Below, piece after piece: positions 7,816 to 46,126 of a stretch of DNA of 64,000 nt. Made by a program: the position numbers and the translations under genes. How positions within the stretch are numbered: the first letter of the stretch is position 1; each line of letters opens with the position of its first letter. Below the pieces are notes generated by a model. It did not search any database. It was not told where the DNA came from and worked only from the letters and a program-made list of their open reading frames with translations. The stretch comes from Phormidium tanganyikae FI6-MK23 (lineage in GTDB: Bacteria > Cyanobacteriota > Cyanobacteriia > Leptolyngbyales > Leptolyngbyaceae): assembly GCA_019359175.1 (NCBI GenBank), contig JAHHHU010000014.1:62001-126000 (forward strand), read 5' to 3'.

Positions 7816-7970
7816 CAGAAATCGCAGGTAGGAAGGACAAAAGCTTCAGGCAGAGTGTACTACAGATTCGAGAATCCTTAGCAAAGAATTATGAATGATA
7901 TTTCCTGTTTCATTCAGAAATTTACTGTGTCGATCGTCATCTGTCCAAAGTTAGCTTTTTAATGGACTTC

Positions 7971-8000
7971 TAAAAAGAAAGGCATCCATTTCAGGATGCC
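7971..8000 (-). terminator. Rho-independent terminator after glyA
   Basis: GGCATCC (7981-7987) and GGATGCC (7994-8000) form a 7-bp stem with a six-base loop. Read on the minus strand it is followed by TTTCTTTTT, a good T-tract. It lies 54 bases beyond the glyA stop. Confidence 0.85.
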
Positions 8001-8053
8001 CTCGTAATGATTATTCGGTTGTCTCCGTCTGAACCGGGATAAATGCTGAGAAT

Positions 8054-9331
8054 TTATACCAATGCCGGAACCTGGGCACTGAGATGGGGATAAAGCGGGA
8101 AGCGATCGCACAGTGCCGCAACGCGACGACGGCAATCTTGAGCCACGCTTTCATCTTCAGGACTGAGTAAGCGATCGGCAATGATATTCGCGATTTCGGT
8201 GAATTCTACTGCTCCCATACCGCGCGTGGTCATTGCAGGCGATCCGAGTCTCAGACCGCTCGTGACAAACGGAGATGCCGGATCAAACGGAACTGTGTTT
8301 TTGTTCGCGGTAATGTTGACTCCGCTAACAAGTTGATCCGCGACTTTTCCGGTCATGCTGATTGATCGCAAGTCCACTAACATCAAGTGATTGTCTGTTC
8401 CGTCAGAAACCAGCTTGAAGCCGCGATTTTGCAGTTGAGATGCCATTGTTCTTGCATTTTCGATCACTTGACCTGAATAAGTTTTAAACTCAGGTTTCAG
8501 CGCTTCTCCAAATGCCGCTGCTTTTCCAGCGATGACGTGCTCCAAAGGACCACCTTGGCTTCCTGGGAATACCGCTTTATCCAACTGCTTTCCGAGTTCA
8601 GCATCACGAGTGAGGATCAAGCCGCCTCTTGGCCCGCGTAGCGTTTTGTGAGTCGTGGTCGTAACCACATCACAGTAAGGGATTGGATTCGGATGATGCC
8701 CAGATGCCACTAATCCCGCAATGTGAGCGATGTCTGCTAGCAAGTACGCGCCGACTTCATCCGCGATCGCTCTAAATTTCTCAAAATCGATCACGCGCGG
8801 ATAAGCAGAGTAGCCACAAATCAAAAGCTTTGGACGATGTTCAAGCGCCAGATCGCGAATTTGATCAAAGTCTAAGCGCTCGGTCGTTTGATTCACGCCG
8901 TAGTGCTGCACCTTAAACCATTTGCCGGAGACGTTTACAGGCGATCCGTGGGTCAGGTGTCCACCGTGAGACAAATCCATCCCCATGATCGTGTCACCGG
9001 GCTGGAGCAGCGATAGAAACACAGCAAAGTTTGCTTGTGCGCCAGAGTGGGGCTGCACGTTGGCGTGTGCGGCTCCGAAGAGTTCTTTTGCTCGATCAAT
9101 AGCGAGTTGCTCCACGCGATCAACAAATTCACAGCCGCCGTAATAGCGTTTGGTCGGTAAACCTTCGGCATATTTGTTGGTCAGAACTGATCCTTGAGCT
9201 TCCATGACCGCAGGAGAGGTGAAGTTCTCACTGGCAATGAGTTCAAGGTGATCTCGCTGGCGTTGCAGTTCTTGCTGCATCATTTCGGCGAGAGCGGGAT
9301 CGGACTTGGCGAGAAAATCAGAATGCGTCAC
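8054..9331 (-). CDS. glyA: Serine hydroxymethyltransferase
   Basis: A 425-residue PLP enzyme interconverting serine and glycine with tetrahydrofolate, the main source of one-carbon units and a photorespiratory enzyme in cyanobacteria. Conserved motifs are [35 protein letters not shown] and the PLP-lysine site [16 protein letters not shown]. The full family length is present. It is monocistronic by spacing, with its own terminator. The glycine-cleavage genes gcvT and gcvH are elsewhere in the window (34.9-36.4 kb). Confidence 0.97.
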
Positions 9332-12362: not shown

Positions 12363-13289
12363 ATGTCATCCCAAACGAATCGATCTGTAATTTCTGAGCG
12401 TCGCGCGATCGTATCTGCCATGCCCGACTGGTTACGCCGCTCGATCGGAAACGCCAGCGAGATTTCGACGGTGCAGCAAATCATTAAGCAGCGGCAGATT
12501 CACACGATTTGCGAAGAAGGACGCTGCCCAAATCGCGGAGAATGCTACGCCCAGAAAACGGCGACTTTTTTACTCATGGGCCCGACTTGTACGCGATCGT
12601 GTGCCTTCTGCCAAGTGGATAAAGGACACGCACCCATGCCGCTCGATGCCGATGAGCCGCAAAAAGTCGCTGAATCGGTGAAGCTTTTGGGATTGCGTTA
12701 CGTGGTACTGACCTCGGTGGCGCGGGATGATTTGGCAGATCAGGGAGCAGGTTGGTTTGCGGAAACGATGCGGCAGATTCGCGCGTTAAAGCCAGAAACT
12801 CAGATCGAAGTGTTGACCCCGGATTTTTGGGGTGGGCGGCAAGACGGCATTTCACCCGAAACTTTACAGCAGCAGCGAATCGCAACGATCGTCTCTGAAA
12901 GCCCCGCTTGCTACAATCACAACATTGAGACGGTGAAGCGGTTACAGGCTCCGGTACGACGCGGCGCGAAGTACGATCGAACCCTCCAAGTTCTACAAAC
13001 CGTTAAAGATCTAAACTCGACGATTCCGACGAAATCCGGCTTGATGTTGGGACACGGCGAAACAGAAGCCGAAGTGATTGAAACCTTAAAAGATTTGAGA
13101 GCGGTAAACTGCGATCGCGTTACTCTCGGTCAATATATGCGCCCGTCGTTAGAGCATCTTCCCGTACAGAAATATTGGCATCCCGATGAATTTGAGCAGT
13201 TGGGAACGATCGCGAAAGAGCTTGGATTTTCTCATGTGCGATCGGCTCCCTTGGTACGCAGTTCATATCACGCAGGTGAAGAATCGTAG
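12363..13289 (+). CDS. lipA: Lipoyl synthase
   Basis: A 308-residue radical-SAM enzyme inserting two sulfurs into octanoyl groups on lipoyl domains. The auxiliary cluster cysteines Cys50, Cys55 and Cys61 ([12 protein letters not shown]) and the radical-SAM cluster Cys76, Cys80 and Cys83 (CTRSCAFC) are all present. The C-terminal SSYHAGE motif is intact. A likely client in the window is GcvH (36.05 kb), whose lipoyl lysine is visible. The gene is monocistronic by spacing. Confidence 0.96.
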
Positions 13290-33419: not shown

Positions 33420-34715
33420 TTAGATGATGGTTCCGTCGGGAATCACCGCACCTTTCAGCGTTACAACAATTCCGCTACGAATGTAGAAACCGAGACTTTC
33501 TCGATCGGCTTCCTGAACGCGATCCTTATTCACGATTTGCACGTTGCAGCCGATATGGGCGTTTTTGTCGATAATTGCACGACGAATGATCGTATCAGAA
33601 CCGATACCGAGCGGCACTTTTGGCGTGTTGCAATCGGTTCCTGATTTACGTTCAGCCTGACCCTCGTAGAAGTCGGCCCCCATGACTAGCGCGTCTTCGA
33701 TTACTGAATTGGCTTCGATTCTAGATCGAACACCTAAAACGGAATGATGCACGCGACAGTTTTTTAGAATGCAGCCTTCACCAATGATCGCTTCTGTAAT
33801 GTGCGAATCGAGGAACTTGCTCGGCGGTAAAAAGCGCTGACGAGTGTAGATCGGTGCTCGCTCATCGTAGAAACTAAACGGCGGGTAAGGCTGTTGAGTC
33901 AGGGCGAGATTTGAATCGTAAAAAGCTTCGATCGTTCCAATATCTTCCCAATAATCATTAAACAGATAGGCTTGAACGTTGTAATCACTAGAAGAATTTG
34001 GAATAATTTCTTTGCCAAAATCTGTCTGGCTTGGCGCTTCTTTTAGCAGTTTTTCGAGGGCTTGTTTTTTGAAGACATAGATTCCCATGGATGCGATGTA
34101 GGGACTCCGAAGCGCTTCCTCAGCCGTTAAGCCGAGAACGGTCGTATCTACCTGCATTCCCTTGAGGGCATCGCCTTTCGGTTTTTCGCTGAAATCTACC
34201 ACTCGTCCAGCCTGATCGATCTTCATCAAGCCGAAATCCGACGCGCGGGATTCATCCATCGGCACAACAGAGAGCGTGATATCGGCTCCGGTGTCGCGAT
34301 GGCGCTGCACAAACTCGCGGTAGTCCATCCGGTACAAATGATCACCCGACAAAATCAAATATTCATCAATGTCCCATTCTTGAAACAGCCAAATGTATTG
34401 TCGAACAGCATCAGCAGTTCCTTGAAACCAGTTCGGATTTTCAGCAGTTTGCTGCGCGGCTAAAACTTCGACAAATCCTTCATTGAATCCAGAAAAGTTG
34501 TAAGCGCGGCCCAAGTGGCGGTTGAGAGAAGCCGAATTAAACTGAGTCAGAACGTAGATCTTAAAAATCTCGGAATTGATGCAGTTACTCACTGGAATAT
34601 CAATGAGCCGATACTTTCCGGCTAGTGGCACGGCTGGTTTTGCCCGCTGTTTCGTCAACGGATATAAACGGGTTCCAGCACCGCCTCCCAGGATTATTGC
34701 TAATACCTTTTTCAC
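33420..34715 (-). CDS. glgC: Glucose-1-phosphate adenylyltransferase
   Basis: This 431-residue enzyme makes ADP-glucose for glycogen and is the committed, allosterically regulated step. Motifs are [25 protein letters not shown], the catalytic [17 protein letters not shown] and a beta-helix C-terminus ([17 protein letters not shown]). The GTG at 34715 with a GAGGT eight bases upstream gives the standard N-terminus [11 protein letters not shown]; the open frame extends 22 codons further without homology. The kinase gene starts 17 bases after its stop. Confidence 0.96.
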
Positions 34716-34919
34716 AAAATAACCTCGCACTTCCACTTCGTCTCCCATCACTAGTTTCTGCTTGGATGGCAAAGTTGACAAGGGGTTTGGGGCAGAGAAT
34801 TGAAATTGGGGATCGATTCAGGGAAAATCTGCGTGGGTTTGCAATCTAGAATACATGGCAAATCGAAAATCGAGAGTAGTGGTAATTTGAGAGTGATGTT
34901 ATTGCGCTTGTAAATTCTC

Positions 34920-36020
34920 GTGAGTCAGCCTTTGAATTCTCTGCGTCGCACACCGTTGTATGAGTTAGCGATCGAGCTGAATGCTCGCATGACTGGATTT
35001 TCGGGTTGGGAAATGCCGGTGCAGTTTGGCGGCATCACCCAGGAGCATCATGCAGTGCGATCGGATGCGGGAATGTTCGACATTTCGCACATGGGCAAAT
35101 TTACGCTCGTCGGGAAGGAAGTGCTGCCCCAAATCCAGCGACTTGTGCCTTCAGATTTGAGTCGCCTTCAGCCAGGACAAGCTCAATATACGGTGCTGAT
35201 GAATTCGCAGGGCGGGATGATTGATGATTTGATCTTCTACTTCCAAGGCGACGATCGATGGGTGGTGATCGTGAATGCGGCGACAACTCAGAAGGATCGC
35301 GATTGGATGTTAGCGAATCTGGACATGAGCGCGATCGAGTTTACAGACCTTTCGGATGCTCAAGCGCTGATTGCGGTGCAGGGCAAAAAAGCGGTTGAAC
35401 ATCTGAGCGAGATTGTCGATCGAGATCTTTCTGGCATTAAACCGTTCGGACACTTAGAAGCAACAATTCTCGGTCATGCTGCATTTATCGCGCGGACGGG
35501 ATACACGGGAGAAGACGGATTCGAGGTGATGCTTGATCCGGCGGGGGCAATCGAACTTTGGCGATCGCTGCTTAAATCGGGTGTGACTCCTTGCGGACTG
35601 GGTGCGCGGGACACCTTGCGATTAGAGGCGGCAATGGCGCTTTATGGGCAGGATATCAACGATTCGACTACCCCTTTGGAAGCGGGGTTAGGTTGGCTCG
35701 TGCATCTCGATACGAAGGGTGATTTTATCGGTCGATCGATGCTCGAAGCGCAAAAGCAAAACGGTGTGAAAAAGCGGCTCGTCGGTTTACAAATGCAGGG
35801 ACGCAATATCGCGCGGCATGACTACCCGATTTTTTCCGATGGGGCAGAAGTGGGAATCGTCACCAGTGGGACACTAGCGCCAACCGTGGGACAAGCGATC
35901 GCGCTTGGGTATGTGCCGACTGAATTATCGAAGCCGGGGCAGCAGGTCGAAATCGGCATTCGGGGAAAAAACTATTCTGCGATCGTCGTGAAGCGTCCGT
36001 TCTACCGCGCAACGAAATAG
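34920..36020 (+). CDS. gcvT: Glycine cleavage system T protein (aminomethyltransferase)
   Basis: A 366-residue tetrahydrofolate-dependent aminomethyltransferase of the glycine cleavage complex, which in cyanobacteria processes photorespiratory glycine. Motifs are TPLYELAIELNARMTGFSGWEMPVQF, DISHMGKF, RTGYTGEDGFEVML and GLGARDTLRLEA. The start is GTG. It lies 33 bases before gcvH and forms an operon with it; gcvP is not in the window. Confidence 0.96.
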   Translation: MSQPLNSLRRTPLYELAIELNARMTGFSGWEMPVQFGGITQEHHAVRSDAGMFDISHMGKFTLVGKEVLPQIQRLVPSDLSRLQPGQAQYTVLMNSQGGMIDDLIFYFQGDDRWVVIVNAATTQKDRDWMLANLDMSAIEFTDLSDAQALIAVQGKKAVEHLSEIVDRDLSGIKPFGHLEATILGHAAFIARTGYTGEDGFEVMLDPAGAIELWRSLLKSGVTPCGLGARDTLRLEAAMALYGQDINDSTTPLEAGLGWLVHLDTKGDFIGRSMLEAQKQNGVKKRLVGLQMQGRNIARHDYPIFSDGAEVGIVTSGTLAPTVGQAIALGYVPTELSKPGQQVEIGIRGKNYSAIVVKRPFYRATK

Positions 36021-36053
36021 AATGGAAGATGCAATTTGACCCCAAGCCCGCTC

Positions 36054-36443
36054 ATGGCATTTGAATACCCAGATACGCTGAAATATACGGACTCCCACGA
36101 ATACGCCAAACTCGATGGCGATACTGCCACGATCGGCATTACTGCATTCGCGATCGATCAGCTTGGTGACATTGTGTTTTTGGAACTCCCGGAGCCAGGT
36201 GCGACGGTGCAAAAAGGCGAGAATTTTGGCACTGTGGAATCGGTGAAAGCGGTTGAAGATCTGAAGTCTCCGGTTAGCGGGACGGTGCTGGAAGCGAATA
36301 CGGAAATGGTGGATGCACCAGAGAACTTGGTGGATGATCCTTATACGTCGGGATGGTTGATTAAGGTGCAGGTGAGCGATCCTTCTGAGCTTGATAGTAC
36401 GATGTCAGCCGATACGTATCGCGGCATGGTTGAAGGCGGTTGA
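36054..36443 (+). CDS. gcvH: Glycine cleavage system H protein
   Basis: A 129-residue lipoyl carrier with the lipoyl-lysine motif [18 protein letters not shown] and normal length. It shuttles the aminomethyl intermediate between P, T and L proteins. The ATG at 36054 ([19 protein letters not shown]) matches the family start better than 36036. It should be modified by LipA-dependent lipoylation (12.4 kb). Confidence 0.96.
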
Positions 36444-36449
36444 TGGGAT

Positions 36450-36501
36450 TGTCGTCTCCACCGGGGAGATCTAGAAAGCGATCTCCCTGGTGGAGACGAC
36501 A
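36450..36501. terminator. 22-bp near-perfect hairpin after gcvH
   Basis: Bases 36450-36471 pair with 36480-36501, with a single G-U (or mismatched) position and an 8-base loop. It starts seven bases after the gcvH stop. The stem includes GTCGTCTCCACC and is GC-rich; no strong T-tract follows. It is either the gcvTH terminator or a mobile palindromic element placed there. Confidence 0.75.
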
Positions 36502-36542
36502 CCAGAACGAGGTAAGTTTTGGACGACGTTGCGGAGAAAATC

Positions 36543-36758
36543 CTAGCTTTGCAAAGACGAGGGCAGATTCAACATATCTTTTACTGCTGCCAAGGAAACG
36601 GCAGGTTCGTCTTTCTCGTCTGCTTTTGCTTGTCTGAGATCTTGCAAATCTTCTAGGTCAGCGAGGAGTTCCTGTACAAGTAGAAATTCCTCATACGGCA
36701 GCACGACAAACTCTGGTTCACCGTTTTTCTTCAGAAATTCAGGATTGAGTTGAATCAT
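36543..36758 (-). CDS. Antitoxin of a RelE-type module
   Basis: 71 residues, MIQLNPEFLKKNGEPEFVV followed by LPYEEFLLVQELLADLEDLQDLRQAK, the typical N-terminal half of Phd/YefM-like antitoxins of cyanobacteria. The C-terminal part (AVSLAAVKDMLNL) is the toxin-binding region. It is encoded 13 bases after the toxin, so the order is toxin first. It should neutralise the toxin and autoregulate the operon. Confidence 0.82.
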   Translation of the reverse strand: MIQLNPEFLKKNGEPEFVVLPYEEFLLVQELLADLEDLQDLRQAKADEKDEPAVSLAAVKDMLNLPSSLQS

Positions 36759-36771
36759 GAGGGTGTCTCTT

Positions 36772-37020
36772 CTAGGAGTACGCTTTACTACGATGTTTGA
36801 TCCAATAAATGACGATCGCTTCTTCTTCTAGCTCAAATAGAATGCGGTAGTCTCCGACCCTTAGGCGATATTCTGGGGTGAAGTTGGTCAGGTGCTTTAC
36901 ATCTCCCTGTAAGTTATCTTGCATCAGTTCTACTTTTTCAAGAATGCGAGTTTGTGTCGTGGGTTCCAGTTTCTTTAAGTCTTTAATTGCTTTTGGTTTT
37001 AGGACAACTTCATATCTCAA
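36772..37020 (-). CDS. RelE/ParE-type toxin
   Basis: An 82-residue RelE-superfamily toxin: MRYEVVLKPKAIKDLKKLEP, then LTNFTPEYRLRVGDYRILFEL and a final YWIKHRSKAYS. The arginines of the RLRVGDYRI strand and the late His/Arg fit an mRNA-interferase-type active site. It is intact and paired with the antitoxin directly downstream; it is the only toxin in the island that looks functional. Confidence 0.87.
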   Translation of the reverse strand: MRYEVVLKPKAIKDLKKLEPTTQTRILEKVELMQDNLQGDVKHLTNFTPEYRLRVGDYRILFELEEEAIVIYWIKHRSKAYS

Positions 37021-37115
37021 AGGGTAATCCGTTGGCTATATGCTGGGGCTGCGTGCGTTTCTGAGAGCATTGTAGCGCGATCTCTGTATCTCTCTAGCGA
37101 TCGCAGATTTCCATC

Positions 37116-37136
37116 TATTTCCGTAGCTGTGTGAAG
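37116..37136 (+). repeat. 21-bp repeat block, copy 1
   Basis: TATTTCCGTAGCTGTGTGAA plus a final G recurs exactly at 37561-37581. The wider CCATCTATTTCCGTAGC (37111-37127) recurs at 38418-38434, across the 3' end of the TPR gene. The three copies mark ends or break points of toxin-antitoxin genes. Confidence 0.85.
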
Positions 37137-37211
37137 GACGATTGCTAGAAAACTTGATAGGCTTTTAGCTTTGCTTCTAAAATGGAGCGATGTTAACGGG
37201 CGAACTGAGTG

Positions 37212-37436
37212 ATGGAAGTGCTGAAATTCACGACAACGATCGATGATTCTGGTCGCTTGCATCTGGATATCCCAACAGACTTATCATCTGTGCAAGTAGA
37301 CATCGTGGTGATTCTGAATCCAAGTCCATCTGATTCGGTTCGGGAAGCTTCCTATGATTTTTCGGATTTGGCAGGGCAATTAGAATGGCAGGGAGATGCG
37401 GTGTCCATGCAGAGGACGCTGCGGGATGAGTGGTAA
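37212..37436 (+). CDS. VapB-like antitoxin
   Basis: 74 residues, MEVLKFTTTIDDSGRLHLDI followed by P-T-D-L and a C-terminal tail SMQRTLRDEW. It resembles short cyanobacterial antitoxins that accompany PIN-domain toxins. ATG 37212 (or the preceding ATG 37209) starts it. The reading frame overlaps the start of the PIN gene by 11 bases, so translation is coupled. Its toxin is broken. Confidence 0.72.
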   Translation: MEVLKFTTTIDDSGRLHLDIPTDLSSVQVDIVVILNPSPSDSVREASYDFSDLAGQLEWQGDAVSMQRTLRDEW

Positions 37437-37665
37437 TCGCTATTTGCTCGATACGAATGCAGTATCGGCACTGCTCAAGGGTGAGATTCAACTGGTTCAA
37501 CTGTTGCAAGGTGAAGGATTTGACGATCGTGAATGGGTAGCGATCGTCATTCCTGTTTTGTATTTCCGTAGCTGTGTGAAGCACGATCGCGGTTTGAAGA
37601 AGTCAGTTCAGTCAGGGCGATCGTCTGTAAATCGATTGATGGCTTCAACGATTCCTGCTGAGTAG
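37426..37665 (+). pseudogene. Truncated VapC (PIN) toxin
   Basis: From ATG 37426 it begins with a good PIN-domain N-terminus (YLLDTNAVSALLKGEIQLVQ), including the first catalytic Asp. After EWVAI the similarity stops. The following codons come from the 21-bp repeat block at 37561 and read into an unrelated minus-strand gene. The remaining acidic catalytic residues are missing, so it should be inactive. Confidence 0.72.
37561..37581 (+). repeat. 21-bp repeat block, copy 2
   Basis: Exact copy of the block at 37116-37136, placed exactly where the VapC coding sequence loses its family similarity. It is a plausible recombination junction. Confidence 0.85.
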
Positions 37666-37844
37666 GGTTCTAGGACTGTAGCAGCAACATGGAGGTCAGC
37701 GAGGGCTTGGCTGAATTCCTCTGAGTTTGGATCTGTGGTTTCGAGTTGTTTGATGGCTGCGATCGCGGTTTCGAGTTGAGGTTGGTATTCGCTGATGTGG
37801 CGTTTCAAACTGATGAGGGATTTTTCTAGAGCGGTGGTCATCAT
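37608..37844 (-). CDS. Small helical protein, island gene
   Basis: 78 residues, mostly alpha-helical and acidic: TALEKSLISLKRHISEY, ETAIAAIKQLETTDP, SEEFSQALADLHVAATVLEP. No family recognised. It overlaps the stop of the preceding minus-strand gene by four bases (ATGA), so the two are translationally coupled. It also overlaps the end of the broken vapC on the other strand by 58 bases. Confidence 0.6.
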   Translation of the reverse strand: MMTTALEKSLISLKRHISEYQPQLETAIAAIKQLETTDPNSEEFSQALADLHVAATVLEPYSAGIVEAINRFTDDRPD

Positions 37845-38035
37845 GGTTTGAGTCTCCTTTCTAGTTTGGCGATTTGCTGACGACAGTTTGTGACGGTCTT
37901 TTCCCAGTGAATGATGAGTCCTTGATCTTGCGCGTCTAATGGCTTTTTCTGCTCGGTTTCAATCTTCTCTAGGTGTTCTGCTAGTGCCCGACGTTGCCCT
38001 TCAAGCTGCTTACGATAGTCTTTATTCTTGGTCAT
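37841..38035 (-). CDS. Small coiled-coil protein, island gene
   Basis: 64 residues with heptad character: KDYRKQLEGQRRALAEHLEK and a C-terminal CRQQIAKLERRLKP. No catalytic motif. Coupled to the 78-residue gene after it and overlapping by four bases the end of the phd remnant before it. The pair could be a small complex; function unknown. Confidence 0.6.
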   Translation of the reverse strand: MTKNKDYRKQLEGQRRALAEHLEKIETEQKKPLDAQDQGLIIHWEKTVTNCRQQIAKLERRLKP

Positions 38036-38315
38036 ATTGTTACGATATCGCTGTAAGCTCTCATTCTTGGTTCAGGGTCGGCGGGGTTGAGGAAGCTGTC
38101 TAGGATATCGTCGGGTAGTGGATCGTTGAAGTTGTCTGGAATGGTGAGCTTGTCTGCATGTTGTCCAGGGGTGCGGGGTGTTCGATCGCGGTTTGTGGAA
38201 GGGATGTGATCGATCGCTTGTCCGTCTTGGGAGATGACGATTTCTTCGCCTTCACACGATCGAGGAGTTGGGTGATTTTGGTGGTGGCTTCGGGAAGGGT
38301 GACGTAGGTGATCAT
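38032..38315 (-). pseudogene. Frameshifted Phd-family antitoxin
   Basis: ATG 38315 gives MITYVTLPEATTKITQLLDR, the normal Phd start. Homology then moves to another frame, GEEIVISQDGQAIDHIPSTN, running to a stop at 38032. The total of 284 bases is not a multiple of three, in line with an indel near 38249. No toxin gene lies next to it. It follows the TPR gene by 106 bases. Confidence 0.75.
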
Positions 38316-38417
38316 TGGGAAGGTGATAGGCGCAGATGATGCCTGCATTATATGCGGGATAAAAACGCGATCGCACGCTTAACCAAGAGATACTGGGCGA
38401 TCGACATTCCCGTTTCT

Positions 38418-38434
38418 CCATCTATTTCCGTAGC
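38418..38434 (+). repeat. Repeat block, partial copy 3
   Basis: CCATCTATTTCCGTAGC matches 37111-37127 exactly. Here it includes the last codons and stop of the TPR gene (LRK then TAG on the minus strand), so the other copies may derive from a duplicated 3' end of such a gene. Confidence 0.75.
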
Positions 38435-40113
38435 CATGCGATGAGAAGAACGATCGAGCTTCCAACGCAGACCCAGAGAACCCAATTGATTTTGCGTTTT
38501 GATGTGGCGCGAACTTTGGCTTTAGCAGGAATTGCAGGGGCAGATTGGGGTTGTTTGGTGGCGATGATTTGGTTGAAGGCGTAGATAGTTGCGTCGCACT
38601 CCGCGACCCTGTAATCGAGTTTTAACTCTGCATAAATTTCGCGGGCTTGCTGCAGTGTGGCGAGGGCTTCAAAGCGTCGAGGTTCGTATTTAGCGAGTGC
38701 TAGAGCTTTGCGATGTAAAGAAATTGCTTCGCCATGGCGATCGCCAATTTCACGCCCAATCCCCAAGGACTGTTGGTGAAAGTCGATCGCTCTTTGGTAC
38801 TGTCCTAATGAATTGTAGGCACTGCCTAGACCACCGAGGGAAAATGCTTCGCCACGGCGATCGCCAATCTCGCGCTTAATCTCTAAGGACTGTTGATGAA
38901 AGTCGATCGCTCTTTGGTACTGTCCTAATGAATTGTAGGCACTGCCTAGACCTACTAAAGAGTTAGACTCAAAATCTCGATTACCAACCTCGCGTTGGAC
39001 TACTAAAGCTTGCTGGTAGTACTCAATTGCCCGTTGATATTGTCCTAACAAATTGTAGGCACTGCCTAGATTACAGAGACTACCACCCTCGCCATTGCGA
39101 TCGCCAATCTCGCGCTTAATCTCTAAGGACTGTTGATGAAAGTCGATCGCTCTTTGGTACTGTCCTAACGAACTGTAGGCATCGCCCAGACTGCGGAGCG
39201 AATTCGCTTCGCCACGTCGATCGCCAATTTCACGGGCGATCGTAAGAGACTGTTGGTAAGCCGCGATCGCATCCTCATAGCAAGATTGACCACACAGAAA
39301 GTTACCAAACCTTACAAACACACCTACAAGATCAGATTGATTGTTTAGTGTTTCATACCGATGAATAGCATTCTGAAACGCATTGATCGATCGTTGCCGT
39401 TCTTGCTCTAAATTCTTTGCTTCGCCGTTTGCAATCCGATTCGCGTAAACCTGCCCTAATTTGTCATACAGCGTTGCTAAATTTGCTGACTCTGGCGAGG
39501 TTGACTCTAGTTGCTCAATCTCTGAAAGCAACTCTTCTAGTGGAGGCAAAAACTCCTGATCCGGCTGAGTTTGGAACTGTTGCCGAATCGTATCATCCCG
39601 AACCGGAACTTCTTCTACTTCCTCCGAAGCAAACCGCAACACTGCTTTACGCCAACTCCAAAAATCCGGTGCTTTGCGGCTCATCTCTCGCAAAATTCGA
39701 TGCGTCACCCAAAGCACGATCGGATAATGAAACTCCCGCAACCCCTCCCGCGTCCACTGCAAATAGCCAAAAAACTTATCCAGATCGCTCTGCGCTTCCT
39801 CCTCCCGCATCTTCACCCGCAGCAACCACTCCGCCCCCGTCACCGTCACCACCGCTCGATCTCCTGATTGCAGATTCAGCTTCGCCAACCCCGATCGCAA
39901 ACTCGGTTCCGTTCCCAACATAACCCGACTCGATCGAATCTTTGCCGATCGCGCCTCTGCCTCATAGCGCTCAACTACTCGCTGCCGCAGTCGCAAATCA
40001 TCACACGCCACCACAATCAGCGACAACCGATCCTGAGTGTTTTCAATCAGCGAGATCAGGCTGTCATAGGTTGCTTCATTCTCTGACGTAAACCGCTCAA
40101 GCGATCGCGACAT
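38422..40113 (-). CDS. Tail-anchored TPR protein paired with an ATPase
   Basis: 563 residues. Residues 1-190 form an alpha/beta domain without a P-loop (LIVVACDDLRLRQRVVERYE, AVVTVTGAEWLLRV, YPIVLWVTHRILREMSRKAP), like a degenerate NTPase. Residues about 265-475 hold TPR repeats with a 40-residue period (SLGQYQRAIDFHQQSLEIKR), several nearly identical in DNA. The C-terminus is a single membrane anchor (NWVLWVCVGSSIVLLIAWL). It overlaps the ATPase gene by 17 bases. A sensing or scaffold role for the ATPase is inferred. Confidence 0.8.
   Translation of the reverse strand: MSRSLERFTSENEATYDSLISLIENTQDRLSLIVVACDDLRLRQRVVERYEAEARSAKIRSSRVMLGTEPSLRSGLAKLNLQSGDRAVVTVTGAEWLLRVKMREEEAQSDLDKFFGYLQWTREGLREFHYPIVLWVTHRILREMSRKAPDFWSWRKAVLRFASEEVEEVPVRDDTIRQQFQTQPDQEFLPPLEELLSEIEQLESTSPESANLATLYDKLGQVYANRIANGEAKNLEQERQRSINAFQNAIHRYETLNNQSDLVGVFVRFGNFLCGQSCYEDAIAAYQQSLTIAREIGDRRGEANSLRSLGDAYSSLGQYQRAIDFHQQSLEIKREIGDRNGEGGSLCNLGSAYNLLGQYQRAIEYYQQALVVQREVGNRDFESNSLVGLGSAYNSLGQYQRAIDFHQQSLEIKREIGDRRGEAFSLGGLGSAYNSLGQYQRAIDFHQQSLGIGREIGDRHGEAISLHRKALALAKYEPRRFEALATLQQAREIYAELKLDYRVAECDATIYAFNQIIATKQPQSAPAIPAKAKVRATSKRKINWVLWVCVGSSIVLLIAWLRK
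38748..39227. repeat. 120-bp tandem repeats coding for TPR units
   Basis: Four copies with a 120-base period share the core CTTTGGTACTGTCCTAA and most flanking bases. The copies ending near 38830, 38950 and 39190 are almost identical, while the third (near 39070) is diverged. High DNA identity points to recent expansion and likely copy-number change by recombination. Confidence 0.85.
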
Positions 40114-41338
40114 CGATCACCCCCTCCTGCACTAGCAAATCGTACACAATCGGATTCAAGTCATACCAGAGCAGCGCATTGCGATACTCCAACACATACA
40201 ATCCATGCAGCAAATCCAAAAACCGCTGACTCTCCGTATCTTGAGGCTTAAACTGCTCATAAATCAGCTTCAACGCCTCAAAATCAACCTGCCCCAGCAC
40301 TTCCGCATACTCAATCTGCAACTCCTCGACTACGGCTTGGAGAATCTGACGATCGACGATTACTTCAGGCTGATCCAACTGCTGCCGCCGCATCTGTCCG
40401 CGAATGTTCTGCATTGCTTTATCACAACAGCGATCGCTAATCCGAATCAACTCCCGCAACACGCCTCCGCTCAACAAAATAATCTGCCGCTTTACTTCCG
40501 GTTCCATCAAGCCTGAAGGCAAGCGTCGATCGAGAATCTGGGCAAACACCTGCACACAAGACTCATCTGGGGTGCGATTCGGCTTTCTGACGATCGCTTT
40601 GCTAAAAAACTTCGCCACCCGCATCGTATGAATCTTGTTGACATAGGTAGTGATGCTTGTCTTGAGCGAAACCTCACGCAGCGTCGCGATCGGAACTGTG
40701 TAGAGAATCCGACAGTTTGGATCGAGCAGTGATTGAATGTTCTTGCTAAAAAGCGTCTCCGTCACACTCAAGTCCAGCTTGTCCAAGTCATCAATAATCA
40801 CCAAGACTTGCTGATTTGTGGCAAGCTCGATCGAGGCTTGAAGATGATTAATTTGAGCAACCAAATCGGAAGTCCGCCGCGCAAACTCGATCGAAATCTC
40901 CTGACGAATCACCGAATTGATTTTTAGCTTTGATTTGATCTTGGCTAAAAACTCCAGAATCACCGGAATCCCACCTTTTACCGTCCCTTCTACATTCGTC
41001 TCAATTTCTGCTTCGACCGCTTTCGATTCAGTCTGAGTATGCTTACCCAACCAGCGATAAAACTCTTTTTTGGTTCCCGGTTTCAACTTAATCGATCGCT
41101 GTTCCGCCGCTTCAAGTAACTGCAACGCCATCGAAAACAGAATGTTGACGTGATCCACCGCCGAGCGCTCGATCGTATCTGCGATTGAAAACATCACCAT
41201 AAAATACCGATTCGTTCCTCTCAGACGAAACCCCAACTCTGCCAACAACGTCGATTTGCCGCAGCCCCGATGCCCCGTAAAAACCAGCTTATTATCCCGC
41301 GACGCACAATCTTCGATCGCTTGCTCCAATTCATCCAC
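40097..41338 (-). CDS. STAND/AAA-like P-loop ATPase, N-terminus disrupted
   Basis: 413 residues from GTG 41338. Walker A is KLVFTGHRGCGKSTLLAE and Walker B is QQVLVIIDDLDKLDL. The region LYTVPIATLREVSL and a sensor-like RELIRISDR follow. The natural N-terminus begins at ATG 41472 (MPSLEALQHRLELFREAGRN), but that frame ends at a TAA created by the inverted repeat at 41346-41407. The GTG start could still give an almost complete ATPase. It is translationally coupled to the TPR gene. A defence-like or signalling ATPase role is inferred only. Confidence 0.78.
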   Translation of the reverse strand: MDELEQAIEDCASRDNKLVFTGHRGCGKSTLLAELGFRLRGTNRYFMVMFSIADTIERSAVDHVNILFSMALQLLEAAEQRSIKLKPGTKKEFYRWLGKHTQTESKAVEAEIETNVEGTVKGGIPVILEFLAKIKSKLKINSVIRQEISIEFARRTSDLVAQINHLQASIELATNQQVLVIIDDLDKLDLSVTETLFSKNIQSLLDPNCRILYTVPIATLREVSLKTSITTYVNKIHTMRVAKFFSKAIVRKPNRTPDESCVQVFAQILDRRLPSGLMEPEVKRQIILLSGGVLRELIRISDRCCDKAMQNIRGQMRRQQLDQPEVIVDRQILQAVVEELQIEYAEVLGQVDFEALKLIYEQFKPQDTESQRFLDLLHGLYVLEYRNALLWYDLNPIVYDLLVQEGVIDVAIA

Positions 41339-41345
41339 CAGCGAT

Positions 41346-41407
41346 GCTTGATCCGTTAGTGACTTCCCAACCGCTCCAGCGCTTCGGAAGTCACTAACGG
41401 ATCAAGC
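41346..41407. repeat. 22-bp perfect inverted repeat breaking the ATPase reading frame
   Basis: Bases 41346-41367 and 41386-41407 are perfect reverse complements with 18 bases between. On the minus strand the first arm met (41407-41386) encodes the sensible NLQLDPLVTSE segment. The second arm reads GGAAGTCACTAACGG, giving a stop in frame and replacing the expected continuation. It looks like a templated inverted duplication. Confidence 0.9.
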
Positions 41408-41472
41408 TGGAGATTGCGCCCTGCTTCTCGAAAGAGTTCTAGACGGTGTTGTAGAGCTTCTAAACTCGGCAT

Positions 41473-41916
41473 ACGATCGCGTTTCCATTCATTAGCTTTC
41501 CTATTGTATTCGGTTGGAAAGCGCCTGAGACTTCATGGAGCGAGAGAATCTACTTTGAACATACGGCGAACATTAGCGAGTTCGCGCTATCGATTCTCTC
41601 TGTCGTCACGAAGCTCATCCCCGATACCGTGAAGCTCACCATCGATACCGTGAGGGTCGCTGCTGTCATCGATACGATGACGACCTTCTTCGTGAAAACC
41701 GCAACCGATACCGCGAACGTCGCAACATTCGCCGCGAACATTGCGATTTTTTCAGTGAAGCTACGAATTACAGTCAAACCCCTGCGGAAAATCAGGAGAC
41801 GCGATCGCCAATCTTCTCGAAAACAACACACGCTTTTGCGCGAATCACTCAACTCATTTGCAAGTCAAACAAGACAAACTAGCACTGTCAACCCACTACA
41901 AGGGAGCATCCAAAAA
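41473..41916 (+). other. Gene-poor region with degenerate repeats
   Basis: Between the ATPase start and the next plus-strand gene. Around 41605-41750 the sequence repeats imperfect ATCGATACCGTGA / ACCGTGAAG / GCGAACGTCGCAAC units. Both strands stay open here, giving hydrophobic frames (TDTANVATFAANIAIF in plus), but I see no family and no ribosome-binding site, so I do not call a gene. Confidence 0.5.
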
Positions 41917-42306
41917 ATGCCACGCGCCCAAAGAACATCCCGTATTCTCGATAAAGGACAACTGCGGATTCTGAAGCTCAAAGCGATTGATCCTTACATG
42001 AGCTTCGGCAACGATCGCAATCTCTCAACTCTGAGCACGCAGATCGAGGAGCTACACACCAAATTGAATGAATACAACACCACGATCGCCGCGCTCGATG
42101 TGGCAAAACAAGAGCTTGATCAGATGGAACGCAGCATGGGCGATTTGCTCGATCAACTACTCAACGGCGTGAGTGCAAAATATGGCAACGATAGCCGTGA
42201 ATACGAGATGGCAGGCGGAACTCGCAAAAGCGATCGCGTTCGCAAAAGTGCCCAAACGCGCAGGAGAAGCGGTGCAACGAAGAAGACGATCGCGGCGAAC
42301 AATTAG
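41917..42306 (+). CDS. Conserved-looking cyanobacterial small protein
   Basis: 129 residues from ATG 41917, preceded by AAGGGAG at Shine-Dalgarno distance. It has a basic N-terminus (MPRAQRTSRILDKGQLRI), an acidic helical centre (STQIEELHTKLNEYNTTIAA), then LLNGVSAKYGNDSREYEMAG and a very basic tail (DRVRKSAQTRRRSG). The AKYG.dS.EYEMAGG motif is one I associate with short cyanobacterial proteins of unknown function. The longer open frame upstream lacks support. The tail suggests nucleic-acid contact; this is speculation. Confidence 0.75.
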   Translation: MPRAQRTSRILDKGQLRILKLKAIDPYMSFGNDRNLSTLSTQIEELHTKLNEYNTTIAALDVAKQELDQMERSMGDLLDQLLNGVSAKYGNDSREYEMAGGTRKSDRVRKSAQTRRRSGATKKTIAANN

Positions 42307-42467
42307 CGATCAAATTAGGAAGATAGGGAACTACTCCCTATCTTCACTCCGGAAGAAATTTGAACTAGATAAAGTGTGGGAAAGTTTGCCAGATTGATAT
42401 CACGGTAACAATACGTCGAGAAGAACGAACCCGCGTACAGTTGAGAGTAGCGCCGTTTTCAGATTTT

Positions 42468-42773
42468 ATGCTGAACATCCCAATTTCAGATCAATTGTTA
42501 CCGTTTATCGAAGAGCAAGCAGCAAGGGCAGGCTTCACAACGATCAGTGACTACATTCAGGATTTGATTTTGCAAGAGCAGAAGCGGGTAGAGTCATCAC
42601 AGAGCAGAAAAATAAACGATCGCGCGGCTGTGTTCTCCACTGACCCAATTGAATTAATGCAGTTGTCGCTGGAAGAACGTCGGAAAGCATTAGAGATCCA
42701 AGCAGCAGTGGATGGTTCAGCATTACGAGCAAGACGAAGAGTGGAGAGCCTTTACGGCAGGAGATATCGTTGA
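42468..42773 (+). CDS. Ribbon-helix-helix-type antitoxin-like protein, orphan
   Basis: 101 residues from ATG 42468. Residues 1-40 (MLNIPISDQLLPFIEEQAAR then AGFTTISDYIQDLILQEQKR) match the ParD-like DNA-binding start of many cyanobacterial antitoxins. The second half (IELMQLSLEERRKALEIQAA) does not follow the usual C-terminus and resembles the tail of another antitoxin class, so it may be a fused or chimeric antitoxin. No toxin gene follows; the next gene is convergent. Confidence 0.65.
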   Translation: MLNIPISDQLLPFIEEQAARAGFTTISDYIQDLILQEQKRVESSQSRKINDRAAVFSTDPIELMQLSLEERRKALEIQAAVDGSALRARRRVESLYGRRYR

Positions 42774-42808
42774 GTACCAACCCTAGCTTACTCAGATCGT
42801 AGGCTCGA

Positions 42809-43213
42809 TTATTCGATTGCTGCTAAATTCCAATCTTCTCCGCTCTGTTGTGCCAAGCTCCAAGTCTGAGTTTTACCCTCAGTTTTGTGTTGTAGATATA
42901 CATCGAAGGCATTATCGACTTGTTTGTCTTGGCGCTTCGATAGCTTGAGCGTAAAATCATACACACCCTTAACGTGATAGCTATCAATGCCCTCGATTTT
43001 GAGCGGACTTTGCTCGGTGACTTTGACGCGATCGACAATCACTTTCGGAGCCGAGGCTAACTTAATCTGCTGACTAATTTCTTGCTGAGTTTGATCGACC
43101 GAAATTGCGATCGCTTTTTTCAACACTGCTCCCGGAACCGAGTATCGCCCACCACACGCAACTAAGCCAATTGCCAGGACAATCGATAGGATAATCTGTA
43201 TCGGTCGTTTCAT
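42809..43213 (-). CDS. Lipoprotein of unknown function
   Basis: 134 residues with a lipoprotein signal (IQIILSIVLAIGLVAC, lipidation Cys about 20) followed by a soluble alpha+beta domain (QEISQQIKLASAPKVIVDRV, HVKGVYDFTLKLSKRQ, KTQTWSLAQQ). It should be anchored in the envelope. No family recognised. It is divergent from the O-methyltransferase gene with starts only 13 bases apart, so each promoter must lie within the other gene. Confidence 0.82.
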   Translation of the reverse strand: MKRPIQIILSIVLAIGLVACGGRYSVPGAVLKKAIAISVDQTQQEISQQIKLASAPKVIVDRVKVTEQSPLKIEGIDSYHVKGVYDFTLKLSKRQDKQVDNAFDVYLQHKTEGKTQTWSLAQQSGEDWNLAAIE

Positions 43214-43226
43214 GGTCTTAGCTCCT

Positions 43227-43886
43227 ATGTTTAAGCAAGCGTTTGGTGTCGATGAGTCTCTCTACCGCTATATTCTCTCAAACTCAGGGCAAGAATCCGA
43301 CATTCTCGCCCAACTTCGCGAAGAAACTGCACAAATGTCTCAAGCTCGAATGCAGATTTCGCCCGATCAAGGTCAATTTATGGCGCTGTTGGTGCGATTG
43401 ATGCAGGCGAAAAAAGCGCTGGAAGTTGGAGTCTTCACGGGATACAGTTCGTTGTCTGTAGCGATGGCACTGCCGCCCGATGGAAAGCTGATCGCGTGTG
43501 ATGTGAGTGAAGAATATACTGCGATCGCGCGTCGGTACTGGGCAATGGCGAATGTTGCAGACAAGATCGATTTGCATATTGCACCTGCAATCGACACGCT
43601 CGATCGCTTACTCCAAGACCAAGCCGGAACCTTCGATTTTGCCTTCATCGATGCGGATAAAGGGAACTATGCGAACTACTACGATCGAGCCATTCAACTG
43701 GTGCGATCAGGTGGACTGATTGTGATCGATAACGTTCTCTGGTCAGGGCGAGTTGCAGATGAAACCGATCACGATAAGATTACCAACACGATTCGCGCGT
43801 TCAACACCAAAGTCGCGCAAGACGATCGCGTATTTGTGAGTGTGTTACCGATCGCGGATGGATTAACGTTAGCGCTGAAGCAATGA
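43227..43886 (+). CDS. Class I SAM-dependent O-methyltransferase (CCoAOMT-like)
   Basis: A 219-residue methyltransferase of the caffeoyl-CoA O-methyltransferase type. SAM-binding motif LEVGVFTGYSSLSVAMALP, metal/catalytic FAFIDADKGNYANYYDRA and GGLIVIDNVLWSGRV are intact. It methylates a catechol or related phenol with a divalent metal; the substrate is unknown. Two in-frame ATGs, 43212 and 43227, are possible; I prefer 43227 because the first overlaps the divergent gene. Confidence 0.9.
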   Translation: MFKQAFGVDESLYRYILSNSGQESDILAQLREETAQMSQARMQISPDQGQFMALLVRLMQAKKALEVGVFTGYSSLSVAMALPPDGKLIACDVSEEYTAIARRYWAMANVADKIDLHIAPAIDTLDRLLQDQAGTFDFAFIDADKGNYANYYDRAIQLVRSGGLIVIDNVLWSGRVADETDHDKITNTIRAFNTKVAQDDRVFVSVLPIADGLTLALKQ

Positions 43887-44567
43887 TTCAGATTGCGATC
43901 GTGACAGATCTGTAGACTCTGTGCGCGTGTCATCTCGCGATCTGAGCAGCGAAATTCCATACCAACACAACCCACTCATAAACACCATCTCTCCACCGTC
44001 CTCTAGGATTTCTAATGGCAGTGATAGCCCATCAATTCCCCCAACGATAACGTGAAGTGCGTCTAGCACAACTCCGCAGAATGCAAGCCCGCCTACTAAT
44101 ACCAATACTCGCTTACAAATGTGCTGAAATGTCTTACCTCCAAACCAGTATGAGCATCCAACCGCAACGATAAAGAAGATTCCCGCGATCGCGCTAACCA
44201 GTAATTCACCAAAGTCGATTGGGTTCAATTGAAACATCGGTTGGAAATTCAACGTGGTCGCGATCGCGTTTCCTACATTTTCATGAATCGCAAACAAATC
44301 ATCTGCAAGCAAATAGCAGAAAAGTAAGGACAGAGATAGATACGACTTGTTAGAGCGGAGTCTAACTAAGACTGCAAAGGAGAATACTAACCATAGTTCT
44401 TTGATGTACTGAAACGATTCACCTAAGCCCCGTTCCGATGCCATTGACCAATACGAACCTCCTCCAATTGAGAAGTGAGCAACAATGTGAATTGCGACCA
44501 TGAAAAGATCAGTTAGTAGCAGCAACAATAGAATTTCAGATGAGTTTTTTTTTGGTACATTTATCAT
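43869..44567 (-). CDS. Polytopic membrane protein of unknown function
   Basis: 232 residues with about six hydrophobic spans (LLLLLLTDLFMVAIHIVAHF, LWLVFSFAVLV, LSLSLLFCYLLADDLFAIHE, FGELLVSAIAGIFFIVAVGC, VLVLVGGLAFCGVVLDALHV, EMVFMSGLCWYGISLL). Charged/polar residues in the spans (HIVAH, DDLFAIHEN, DALHV, EDGGE) could bind metal or haem. No family recognised. Its 3' end overlaps the convergent methyltransferase by 18 bases. Confidence 0.75.
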   Translation of the reverse strand: MINVPKKNSSEILLLLLLTDLFMVAIHIVAHFSIGGGSYWSMASERGLGESFQYIKELWLVFSFAVLVRLRSNKSYLSLSLLFCYLLADDLFAIHENVGNAIATTLNFQPMFQLNPIDFGELLVSAIAGIFFIVAVGCSYWFGGKTFQHICKRVLVLVGGLAFCGVVLDALHVIVGGIDGLSLPLEILEDGGEMVFMSGLCWYGISLLRSRDDTRTESTDLSRSQSESLLQR

Positions 44568-44884
44568 GCCTCGCAGATCCTCCTCGGCTCATACAGTTGT
44601 GATGAATTACACCTGCTTCTAAATTGGAATTAAGAAGAGAAATACACAACTTAATTTATTCTTATCCTGCGGTTAACCTTACCATCACATACAAGACGTT
44701 TGGGCTCTCCCCCTAGCAAGAGAATATGCAGCTCATTGACAAGCACATACAGTAATTCTGAGTTGATCTAAGGGTTTTACCCTACTTGACCCCTAGTATG
44801 TGGGAAAAAAGTATGTGGGAAAAAGGTTAAGGTATCAAGACAAACCAGGAATACGATCGTTGCTGTAATTAAATTCACACCTGC
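44568..44884 (+). promoter_or_regulatory. Gene-free region upstream of cbiD with a 15-bp tandem direct repeat
   Basis: Two abutting copies of AGTATGTGGGAAAAA lie at 44795-44809 and 44810-44824, about 60 bases before the cbiD start. They could be paired sites for a regulator. I found no recognisable cobalamin-riboswitch core in this 317-bp stretch. Confidence 0.55.
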
Positions 44885-46126
44885 ATGAAATCTGGTTACA
44901 CCTTGCCTGTGTTCGCCTGTGCTTCTGCGATCGCCGCACTGCAACATCTTCGACACGGAACCGCGATCGATCACGTCGAACTCGATTTGATCAACCCGGT
45001 TCAAGTGGTTGAAATCTCGATCGAGCAAGTCGCCAAGCTCACCGCAAATTCCGCACTCGCCATTACTCGAAGCGATCCGGGTGATAATCTCGATCTCACT
45101 CGCAATACACCGATTTGGGCAATGGTCGAATTGAGTGCGGATGATGCTAACGCTGCGATTGAAGCGGTTGAAAGCCCCCTAAATCCCCCATTCTGGGAGA
45201 CTTTGAGATCAAACACTTTCAGACTCCAAAACGACTCTCAGCTTTCTAAGTCCCCCATTCATGGGGGACTTAGGGGGCAGAAGCCGCCTGAAACGCAGCG
45301 ACCATTAACCGAGAGAATCACCATCATCGGCGGCGAAGGAATCGGAATACGATCGGATCAGCAATCCGCCATATACGCCTACGCCCAACAACTTCTTCTA
45401 GCCAACCTAGAACGGCTCCTACACCCTGGTGAATCCCTCCGCGTCACGCTCATCCTGCCCGAAGGTCGGCAACTGGCAAAACGCACCTCAAACGAAGCTT
45501 TCGGAGTCGTTGAAGGTTTATCGCTGCTTGGAACCTCTGGCATCGCTCATCCGCTCAGCGCACCCGACCAACTCGAACTCTTTCGCGCAGAGCTTCAGCA
45601 AAAATCCAAGCAGTTTGACACGATCGTATTTTGCATCGGTGAGAACGGTTTGGATCTCGCCGCAAAGATGGGCATCGATCGCGATCGCACGCTCAAAACC
45701 GCCAACTGGATTGGTTCGCTCCTTGTCGAAGCCGGAATGCAGCACGTCAAATCGATTCTTCTCTTCGGCTATCACGGCAAACTGATCAAACTCGCAGGTG
45801 GCATCTTTCACACCCATCACCACGTTGCCGATGCTCGCCAGGAAATTCTCACCGCTCACGCCGCAAAAGTTGGAATGTCCACACCCGACCTGCAAGCGAT
45901 TTTGACCAGTGCCACCGCTGAAGACGGACTGAAATACTTAAGAAATTTGGGAAGCGCGATCGCCGTTTACAATTCCATCGCCCAAACGATCGACGATCGC
46001 GCCCAACACTACATCTACACGCATAGCGAAGCTACCGTCGAGATCGGGACGATCTTGTTCGATCGATCCCGCCAGATTCTTGTGAAAAGCAAAAAAGCAA
46101 CTCAACTGCTTGAGTCCATTTGCTAA
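44885..46126 (+). CDS. cbiD: Cobalt-precorrin-5B (C1)-methyltransferase CbiD, with inserted segment
   Basis: 413 residues; usual CbiD proteins are about 360-380. It adds the C1 methyl group in anaerobic-type corrin-ring synthesis. Family segments are SGYTLPVFACASAIAALQHL, ITIIGGEGIGIRSDQQ, SLLGTSGIAHPLS, LFGYHGKLIKLAGGIFHTHH. About 35 residues starting near residue 97 (SPLNPPFWE ... IHGGLRGQK) are coded by a palindromic repeat inserted in frame at 45174-45278. The site lies between two conserved blocks, so the enzyme may still work. Confidence 0.9.
   Translation: MKSGYTLPVFACASAIAALQHLRHGTAIDHVELDLINPVQVVEISIEQVAKLTANSALAITRSDPGDNLDLTRNTPIWAMVELSADDANAAIEAVESPLNPPFWETLRSNTFRLQNDSQLSKSPIHGGLRGQKPPETQRPLTERITIIGGEGIGIRSDQQSAIYAYAQQLLLANLERLLHPGESLRVTLILPEGRQLAKRTSNEAFGVVEGLSLLGTSGIAHPLSAPDQLELFRAELQQKSKQFDTIVFCIGENGLDLAAKMGIDRDRTLKTANWIGSLLVEAGMQHVKSILLFGYHGKLIKLAGGIFHTHHHVADARQEILTAHAAKVGMSTPDLQAILTSATAEDGLKYLRNLGSAIAVYNSIAQTIDDRAQHYIYTHSEATVEIGTILFDRSRQILVKSKKATQLLESIC
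45174..45278. mobile_element. 105-bp palindromic repeat element inserted in cbiD
   Basis: The ends GCCCCCTAAATCCCCC (45174-45189) and GGGGGACTTAGGGGGC (45263-45278) are 16-bp inverted repeats with one mismatch. An inner AGTCCCCCAT/ATGGGGGACT palindrome sits at the right end. The length of 105 is a multiple of three and contains no stop in the cbiD frame. CCCCCTAAATCCCCC-type repeats are frequent in many cyanobacterial genomes. No target-site duplication is clear. Confidence 0.85.

Follow-up and report, generated by a model that had tools for sequence, protein, structure and literature searches.

The nearest published plan for the gene pair treated here is the nSTAND2 two-gene operon, to which the pair is compared on the basis of its description. 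The pair, an ATPase gene followed by the gene of a repeat-bearing partner protein, lies on a 64,000-nucleotide stretch of the cyanobacterium Phormidium tanganyikae FI6-MK23 (contig JAHHHU010000014.1, positions 62,001 to 126,000 of the forward strand; this whole stretch is referred to as the window). As described in PMC8195603, the nSTAND2 operon encodes an active STAND protein next to an inactive STAND protein fused to an effector, and the inactive member most commonly carries GT4 or HEPN. The same paper characterizes the NTPase as a STAND-like type close to DAP3, predicts a mixed ring, and points out that the well-studied eukaryotic systems offer no functional precedent for inactive versions of STAND. 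The iSTAND/VMAP MoxR-vWA ternary systems are described in PMC7159879 and PMC8195603.

Measured against these descriptions, the window pair resembles the nSTAND2 operon in having two adjacent genes with STAND-like NTPase modules, one predicted to be active and one eroded, but differs in the domains attached to the partner, which are TPRs here, once TPRs plus CHAT, and a P-loop plus WD40 repeats in distant forms. With the MoxR-vWA ternary systems it shares the theme of an inactive NTPase, and relatives of the ATPase are found inside such loci (L116, L122); however, the window pair consists of two genes, and a MoxR query matched 0 of 40 close loci. No MoxR or vWA gene was recognized by eye beside the window pair among the open reading frames (ORFs) at 34000-46000. 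STAND/NLR proteins of the NPHP3 type are similar with respect to NPHP3_N and NACHT in the ATPase and the TPR arm in the partner, whereas NTPase and repeats are located on two proteins here and are joined via an added pseudo-ATPase domain. In fold, the model of this domain resembles the AAA+ proteins ORC/Cdc6 and TnsC; unlike them, the domain has no P-loop and is fused to TPRs, and its identity to them is 8-15%.

The pair is a real two-gene ATPase/pseudo-ATPase module that is widespread in cyanobacteria. Within reach of the literature searches, the module is undescribed; it varies the theme of an active STAND protein combined with an inactive one. The original prediction, which was made from the window sequence and knew of no described system with exactly this pair, is in agreement with our search of the open-licence literature, in which no description of an ATPase/N-domain pair was found. 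For the function of the pair, we regard the chances as even that it acts as a single signalling switch composed of an active ATPase and a TPR-bearing pseudo-ATPase. Because both proteins would form one switch, the pair would work like an NLR/STAND protein cut in two.

Conservation of the gene pair

The pair occupies positions 38422-41472 of the window on the minus strand, and the two reading frames share 17 nt.

40097 to 41338, minus strand: STAND/ORC-type P-loop ATPase, 413 amino acids (aa), GTG start (ORF, Pfam, alignment of 40 relatives)
38422 to 40113, minus strand: partner protein, 563 aa (ORF call)

The nearest named relative of the window ATPase is that of Phormidesmis priestleyi BC1401 (85% identity), and the window is cyanobacterial. 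The close pair of strain BC1401 (L002) is intact and served as the reference. Besides the window, 47 close ATPase matches were obtained (E values up to 5.1e-48), 40 of which were taken for comparison together with L002 and L003. The gene encoding the N-terminal domain of the partner (N-domain) follows the ATPase gene in 41 of 42 close loci, and the exception (L041) is located at a contig end. Both genes are on the same strand in all 42 rows containing them, including the window, and the spacing from the ATPase stop to the partner start lies between −17 and +10 nt in 33 of the 42 rows (starts picked by script). For the remaining seven close ATPase matches, an N-domain match was found alongside in five, as judged by coordinates. 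The arrangement also extends to distant ATPases: in all 20 loci taken in list order, the next gene downstream encodes an N-domain and has the same orientation as the ATPase gene, and the five loci skipped in this series are pairs as well. One of the 20 (L137) was seen only with the HMMER filters switched off, and several match part of the profile. A further 37 loci were mostly picked for an already known match and give no rate.

The two proteins also diverge together. Over 39 loci, the distances of ATPases and N-domains correlate with r = 0.927, a value not reached in any of 2000 permutations (maximum 0.365) and inflated also by the kinship of the genomes. For the 12 loci of the six genomes that have two close pairs each, the two nearest neighbors of the ATPase were compared with those of the N-domain: one or both agree in 9 loci, and neither agrees in three. 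These results bear out the original prediction in its claim that the two genes belong together, and the co-occurrence search it had proposed gave the partner N-domain next to the ATPase almost throughout. Surveys of 386 sampled cyanobacterial genomes, in which up to four ATPase and up to eight N-domain candidates were scored per genome, detected the ATPase (E ≤ 1e-10) in 83 genomes and the N-domain (E ≤ 1e-5) in 88. In L097 (3369-6784), two ATPases of the family are arranged in tandem ahead of one N-domain gene.

The ATPase

The Walker motifs are clearly recognizable and conserved among the close relatives.

41249 to 41275, minus strand: Walker A, GHRGCGKST (G, G, G, K, and S invariant in 40/40 aligned ATPases)
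40778 to 40804, minus strand: Walker B, LVIIDDLDK (D-D-x-D-K invariant in 40/40 aligned ATPases)

The window ATPase exceeds the Pfam cut-off for NPHP3_N (28.6 bits, cut-off 24.8) and barely that for NACHT (26.8 bits, cut-off 26.7), and AAA_16 is slightly below its cut-off. Both the Walker A/B pair and the STAND-like character had been recognized before and are upheld by these data. Among the matches listed for the 40 aligned ATPases (E ≤ 0.01; best 25 of 41 Pfam families), AAA_16, KAP, AAA_22, and ATPase_2 are present in all 40, NPHP3_N in 38, NACHT in 35, and DAP3 in 26; no family named nSTAND2 is found among them or among the Pfam matches listed for the window proteins. Pfam detected no superstructure-forming repeat family on the ATPase polypeptide, the repeats being located on the partner. 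In the proposed switch, the first protein would be the active AAA+ ATPase, belonging to the STAND/ORC kind.

The N-terminal domain of the partner

The first 165 residues of the partner form a domain for which the original prediction had used the label "P-loop-less NTPase-like".

39619 to 40113, minus strand: P-loop-less AAA+-like (pseudo-ATPase) domain, partner residues 1-165 (model, fold matches, motif absence)

The motif GxxxxGK[ST] is absent from all 41 close and all 52 other copies of the domain. A Pfam search with the 41 close N-domains gave no match above chance (18 families at E values up to 1; best value 0.006, one member). MinC was the sole match in a sequence search of the PDB (E 0.16) and was taken as a chance hit. 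The AlphaFold2 model (mean predicted local distance difference test (pLDDT) 73, predicted TM-score 0.69) shows helices alternating with five strands. Foldseek matched it to archaeal Orc2 (E 2.3e-5) and TnsC (E 1e-3), and VIA-align to TnsC (Z 12.1; root-mean-square deviation 3.5-4.2 over 149-154 residues), followed by ORC chains (Z 10.6-11.5) and then by NSF, p97, and other AAA+ proteins (Z > 10). According to the model, the fold class is clearly AAA+-like, and the nearest kin within AAA+ is not clear. Because the motif is missing and the model is AAA+-like, the earlier label is right, and the structure prediction proposed along with it points to ORC and TnsC as the nearest folds. All 96 aligned N-domain rows retain Trp154, and 86 of them retain Asp150; Arg122 is present in all 41 close, all 28 long, and 17 of 27 short rows (in all such counts, at least one locus, L119, duplicates a close one).

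It is improbable that the pair is a branch of the published nSTAND2 operon. The presence of two adjacent genes, one of them with an eroded NTPase, and of DAP3 matches in many of the ATPases would fit the description in PMC8195603. However, the usual GT4 or HEPN domains were not seen in the partners of the window and of L033, the two that were scanned over their whole length, and hhalign detected no profile link from the N-domain to the ATPase or to the one iSTAND protein compared.

Repeats and C-terminal parts of the partner

The N-domain is followed by TPRs and, in the window, by a terminal hydrophobic segment.

38734 to 39315, minus strand: TPR units of 40 residues, partner residues ~267-460 (Pfam, tandem repeat, units)
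38425 to 38493, minus strand: hydrophobic segment, possible tail anchor (mean hydropathy 1.99; not a family trait)

TPR_12 was matched with an E value of 3e-43 and TPR_NPHP3 below its cut-off. TRF reported a period of 120 bp with 4.2 copies and 71% matches. The length of the partner differs with the TPR array (563 aa in the window vs. 882 aa in L002). In a unit comparison with a search pattern that caught four, not all, units per protein, the window units showed a mean DNA identity of 73% among themselves and of 72% to the L002 units; two of the four are slightly nearer to their own array (82.5 vs. 76.7 and 83.3 vs. 79.2), and the other two are equally close to both. Thus, of the recently expanded 40-residue TPRs postulated originally, the unit length and the variable array hold, whereas a clear recent expansion does not. 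The C-terminal membrane anchor also stands in part: the hydrophobic segment exists in the window partner, but is found in only 3 of 38 complete partners (window, L002, and L062).

Complete close partners range from 346 to 1137 aa (median 598), and the L033 partner ends with a CHAT domain (PF12770, E 4.6e-43). Of the 28 aligned rows from long partners of distant ATPases, 27 have a P-loop after the N-domain. The listed Pfam matches (up to 25 families) show WD40 repeats in four long partners (L083, L085, L087, and L123) and nSTAND1 in two (L123 and L124); the L124 partner is called a WD-40 protein in its record, with no WD40 family among its listed matches. Since the C-terminal parts vary in this way, ATPase and N-domain constitute the constant core, to which exchangeable repeats and ends are attached.

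Defense genes, phages, and viral collections

The locus had been placed in a toxin-antitoxin island. A ParE gene (PF05016, E 9.2e-11) with a Phd/YefM match below the cut-off lies at 36543-37020, 1.4 kb from the pair, but three other small ORFs scanned on this side gave no toxin or antitoxin match, so that one toxin gene with a weak antitoxin match is left of the proposed island. In L002, an antitoxin-like ORF resembling that of the window by eye is located downstream of the pair (12923-13180). Near close pairs, PADLOC families were not in excess (top families 3/147 among near vs. 2/126 among far neighbors of the same loci; best 25 of 49 families near, best 25 of 59 far), so that a defense-island setting of the close relatives is not supported by these lists.

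In the viral collection, none of 351 pattern matches was recognized as a relative by the ATPase profile, and the phage records contained no match for the L002 ATPase or the L120 fragment. The N-domain profile gave two loci in the viral collection, one of which is L120. Here, a lone N-domain (7638-8477; a fragment with 44% identity, preceded by an unrelated N-terminal stretch) is located close to one end of a contig that is classified as viral, in a record without an ATPase or Terminase_6N match. Its interpretation as a phage-borne N-domain was rejected, as this end, read by eye, resembles the beginning of a fabI gene from bacteria.

Originally, the pair had been likened to phage-sensing NTPase systems with TPRs as the sensor and a membrane part as the effector, which would make the membrane segment of the partner a killing effector. 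The three partners with a hydrophobic terminus and the variation of the array length between close relatives are compatible with this proposal. We nevertheless consider it very improbable, because the segment is missing in 35 of the 38 complete partners, so that the membrane part is not supported as the effector, and because neither a defense-gene excess near close pairs nor a phage or viral match of the ATPase was obtained.

Distant relatives in conflict-type loci

Remote relatives of the ATPase are present in conflict-type gene sets, and three plasmid records contain such relatives. In L122 (Nostoc sp. C057), the ATPase forms the C-terminal part (residues 551-969; hidden Markov model E 2.3e-47; hhalign probability 99.9) of a protein annotated as SAV_2336-related, whose neighbors are MoxR and a protein containing VMAP-C and VMAP-M1. 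L124 (9824-17331, on a plasmid of Calothrix sp. NIES-4101) encodes the ATPase, then a fusion of TIR_2 (E 1.5e-33) with a second ATPase that matches more weakly, and after this fusion a partner with two consecutive N-domains. On a conjugative plasmid of Acaryochloris "Moss Beach" (L123), CHAT, WD40/NB-ARC, TIR, and TPR genes precede the pair. In the chromosomal locus L116 (390-5609), one gene encodes an iSTAND protein (PF19995, E 1.4e-20), another a MoxR-like ATPase, and a third a vWA protein (VWA_CoxE); they precede a fourth gene for a 674-aa protein whose C-terminal part is an ATPase of the family. The N-terminal part of this protein, which no model matched, is presumably the pre-effector linker of such systems. 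By its gene content, L116 is classified as a ternary conflict locus with a family ATPase in the place of the effector. For the superfamily, a function in conflict or immunity is more likely than not; this claim is not carried over to the close subfamily.

Proposed mechanism and role

In the proposed switch, the ATPase and its partner would assemble through their AAA+ domains into a mixed assembly, in which the pseudo-ATPase restrains the ATPase at rest. A ligand read by the repeats would alter the pseudo-ATPase, which would then permit ATP binding or hydrolysis by the ATPase and thereby the formation of an active, ATP-driven assembly that relays the signal. The output would vary by locus, with candidates in the CHAT domain of one close partner, the P-loop and WD40 parts of distant partners, and the TIR domain of a sister ATPase.

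Several observations weigh against such a switch. The structure model of the ATPase was unusable (pLDDT 38.6, three sequences), that of the N-domain was built from five sequences, and its Foldseek TM-scores were modest (0.42-0.51 by query). As hhalign could link the N-domain to the ATPase neither by sequence nor by profile, we do not propose that either derives from the other. Arg155 of the N-domain is present in all 41 close rows, but in only 4 of 28 long and 11 of 27 short ones. It directly precedes the last strand, a position that we take to match that of AAA+ arginine fingers; on this placement by topology, Arg155 could act as a trans finger in the close set, but such a finger is not general. 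N-domain genes without an adjoining ATPase gene exist, among them a second N-domain-TPR gene in the same genome (L103 4054-6030, contig C50), which adjoins argB- and thiG-like genes; a thiG-like neighbor recurs in L108 and L111. Queries with TIR, CHAT, MoxR, and VMAP taken from the conflict loci and run against 96 loci (40 close and 56 others) found only L033 itself (CHAT) and L116 (MoxR), and therefore conflict links are few. Finally, two subunits of NDH-1 are the most frequent Pfam families near the pair (5/147 each), and 6 of the 39 close loci have an NdhK-like gene (named by reading) at a distance of no more than three genes on the upstream side, so that housekeeping neighbors are present in one family.

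Because of these NDH-1 neighbors and the missing PADLOC excess, the contexts of the close pairs appear to be mixed rather than defense islands. A mainly housekeeping setting, which the original prediction had named as evidence against itself, was thus found in part only. An undescribed island could escape this analysis, since PADLOC and Pfam name only known things. The same two findings, together with N-domain-TPR genes that lack an ATPase and adjoin thiG- and argB-like genes, would suit a non-immune regulator, that is, a chromosomally inherited cyanobacterial pair for ATP-driven assembly or signalling, for example of membrane or respiratory complexes. We rate this explanation as rather unlikely, because other close pairs have different neighbors and relatives occur on plasmids and in TIR, VMAP, and iSTAND settings. 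Moreover, one close partner ends in CHAT, and according to PMC7159879, variation of the C-terminal parts is more typical of conflict systems.

If the N-domain is a pseudo-ATPase controlling the ATPase, the split switch would offer a simple two-protein system for studying inactive STAND-like domains, based on a domain that has no Pfam family and yet is frequent in the sampled genomes. Only tentatively would we extend it to a widespread class of cyanobacterial split NLRs, in which sensor and motor proteins meet at an interface of active and pseudo AAA+ domains, the pseudo-ATPase acts in trans, sensor arms (TPR, WD40) and outputs (CHAT, TIR, a second STAND domain) are exchangeable, and the motor is reused in MoxR-vWA systems. 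With a pseudo-ATPase in control of the ATPase, bacteria would also gain an NLR-like module, and two-gene switches and ternary conflict systems would have a motor in common.

Condition of the window copy

The N-terminal region of the ATPase gene is interrupted in the window.

41346 to 41407, no strand: near-perfect hairpin, 62 nt, 30-nt arms, 93% complementary, 2-nt spacer; breaks the ATPase frame
41356 to 41472, minus strand: N-terminal ATPase piece of 38 aa, stop inside the hairpin (sequence; alignment with L002)

As read by eye, translation from the ATG at 41472 covers 38 codons and terminates at 41356, and the frame is open again from the GTG at 41338. The resulting 413-aa frame is approximately 43 N-terminal residues shorter than the L002 frame (456 aa), in which the alignment shows an ordinary open frame and no hairpin at this position. 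As RNA, the hairpin has a predicted folding energy of −50.6 kcal/mol (z −10.8). Compared with L002, its second arm resembles a copy of the first arm that displaced other letters. Template switching can yield such arm copying. The hairpin may have originated from a template switch or from an assembly error. The ratio of nonsynonymous to synonymous substitution rates (dN/dS) relative to L002 is 0.11 for the remaining ATPase frame and 0.21 for the N-domain; on account of these values, the lesion, if real, is likely to be recent.

The window copy is probably impaired. That it is a decaying copy inactivated by the hairpin, which would be compatible with any reading of the pair, is slightly favored by the stop within a region that stays open in L002 and by the lack of a second such ATPase in the genome (next match E 0.03). 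On the other hand, the 413-aa ATPase frame and the partner frame are open and show the dN/dS values given above, translation could restart at the GTG at 41338, and the hairpin could be an assembly error.

Further features of the locus

A protein of 129-131 aa is encoded divergently from the pair in both genomes (window 41917-42306; L002 7035-7430; alike by eye), and the window version has no clear Pfam family. Upstream of the pair, a 21-bp tandem repeat with 2.1 copies is located at 41610-41653. On the opposite side, an inverted repeat (36450-36501) with 22-nt arms that are 95% complementary and 8 nt apart directly follows a gcvH-like ORF.

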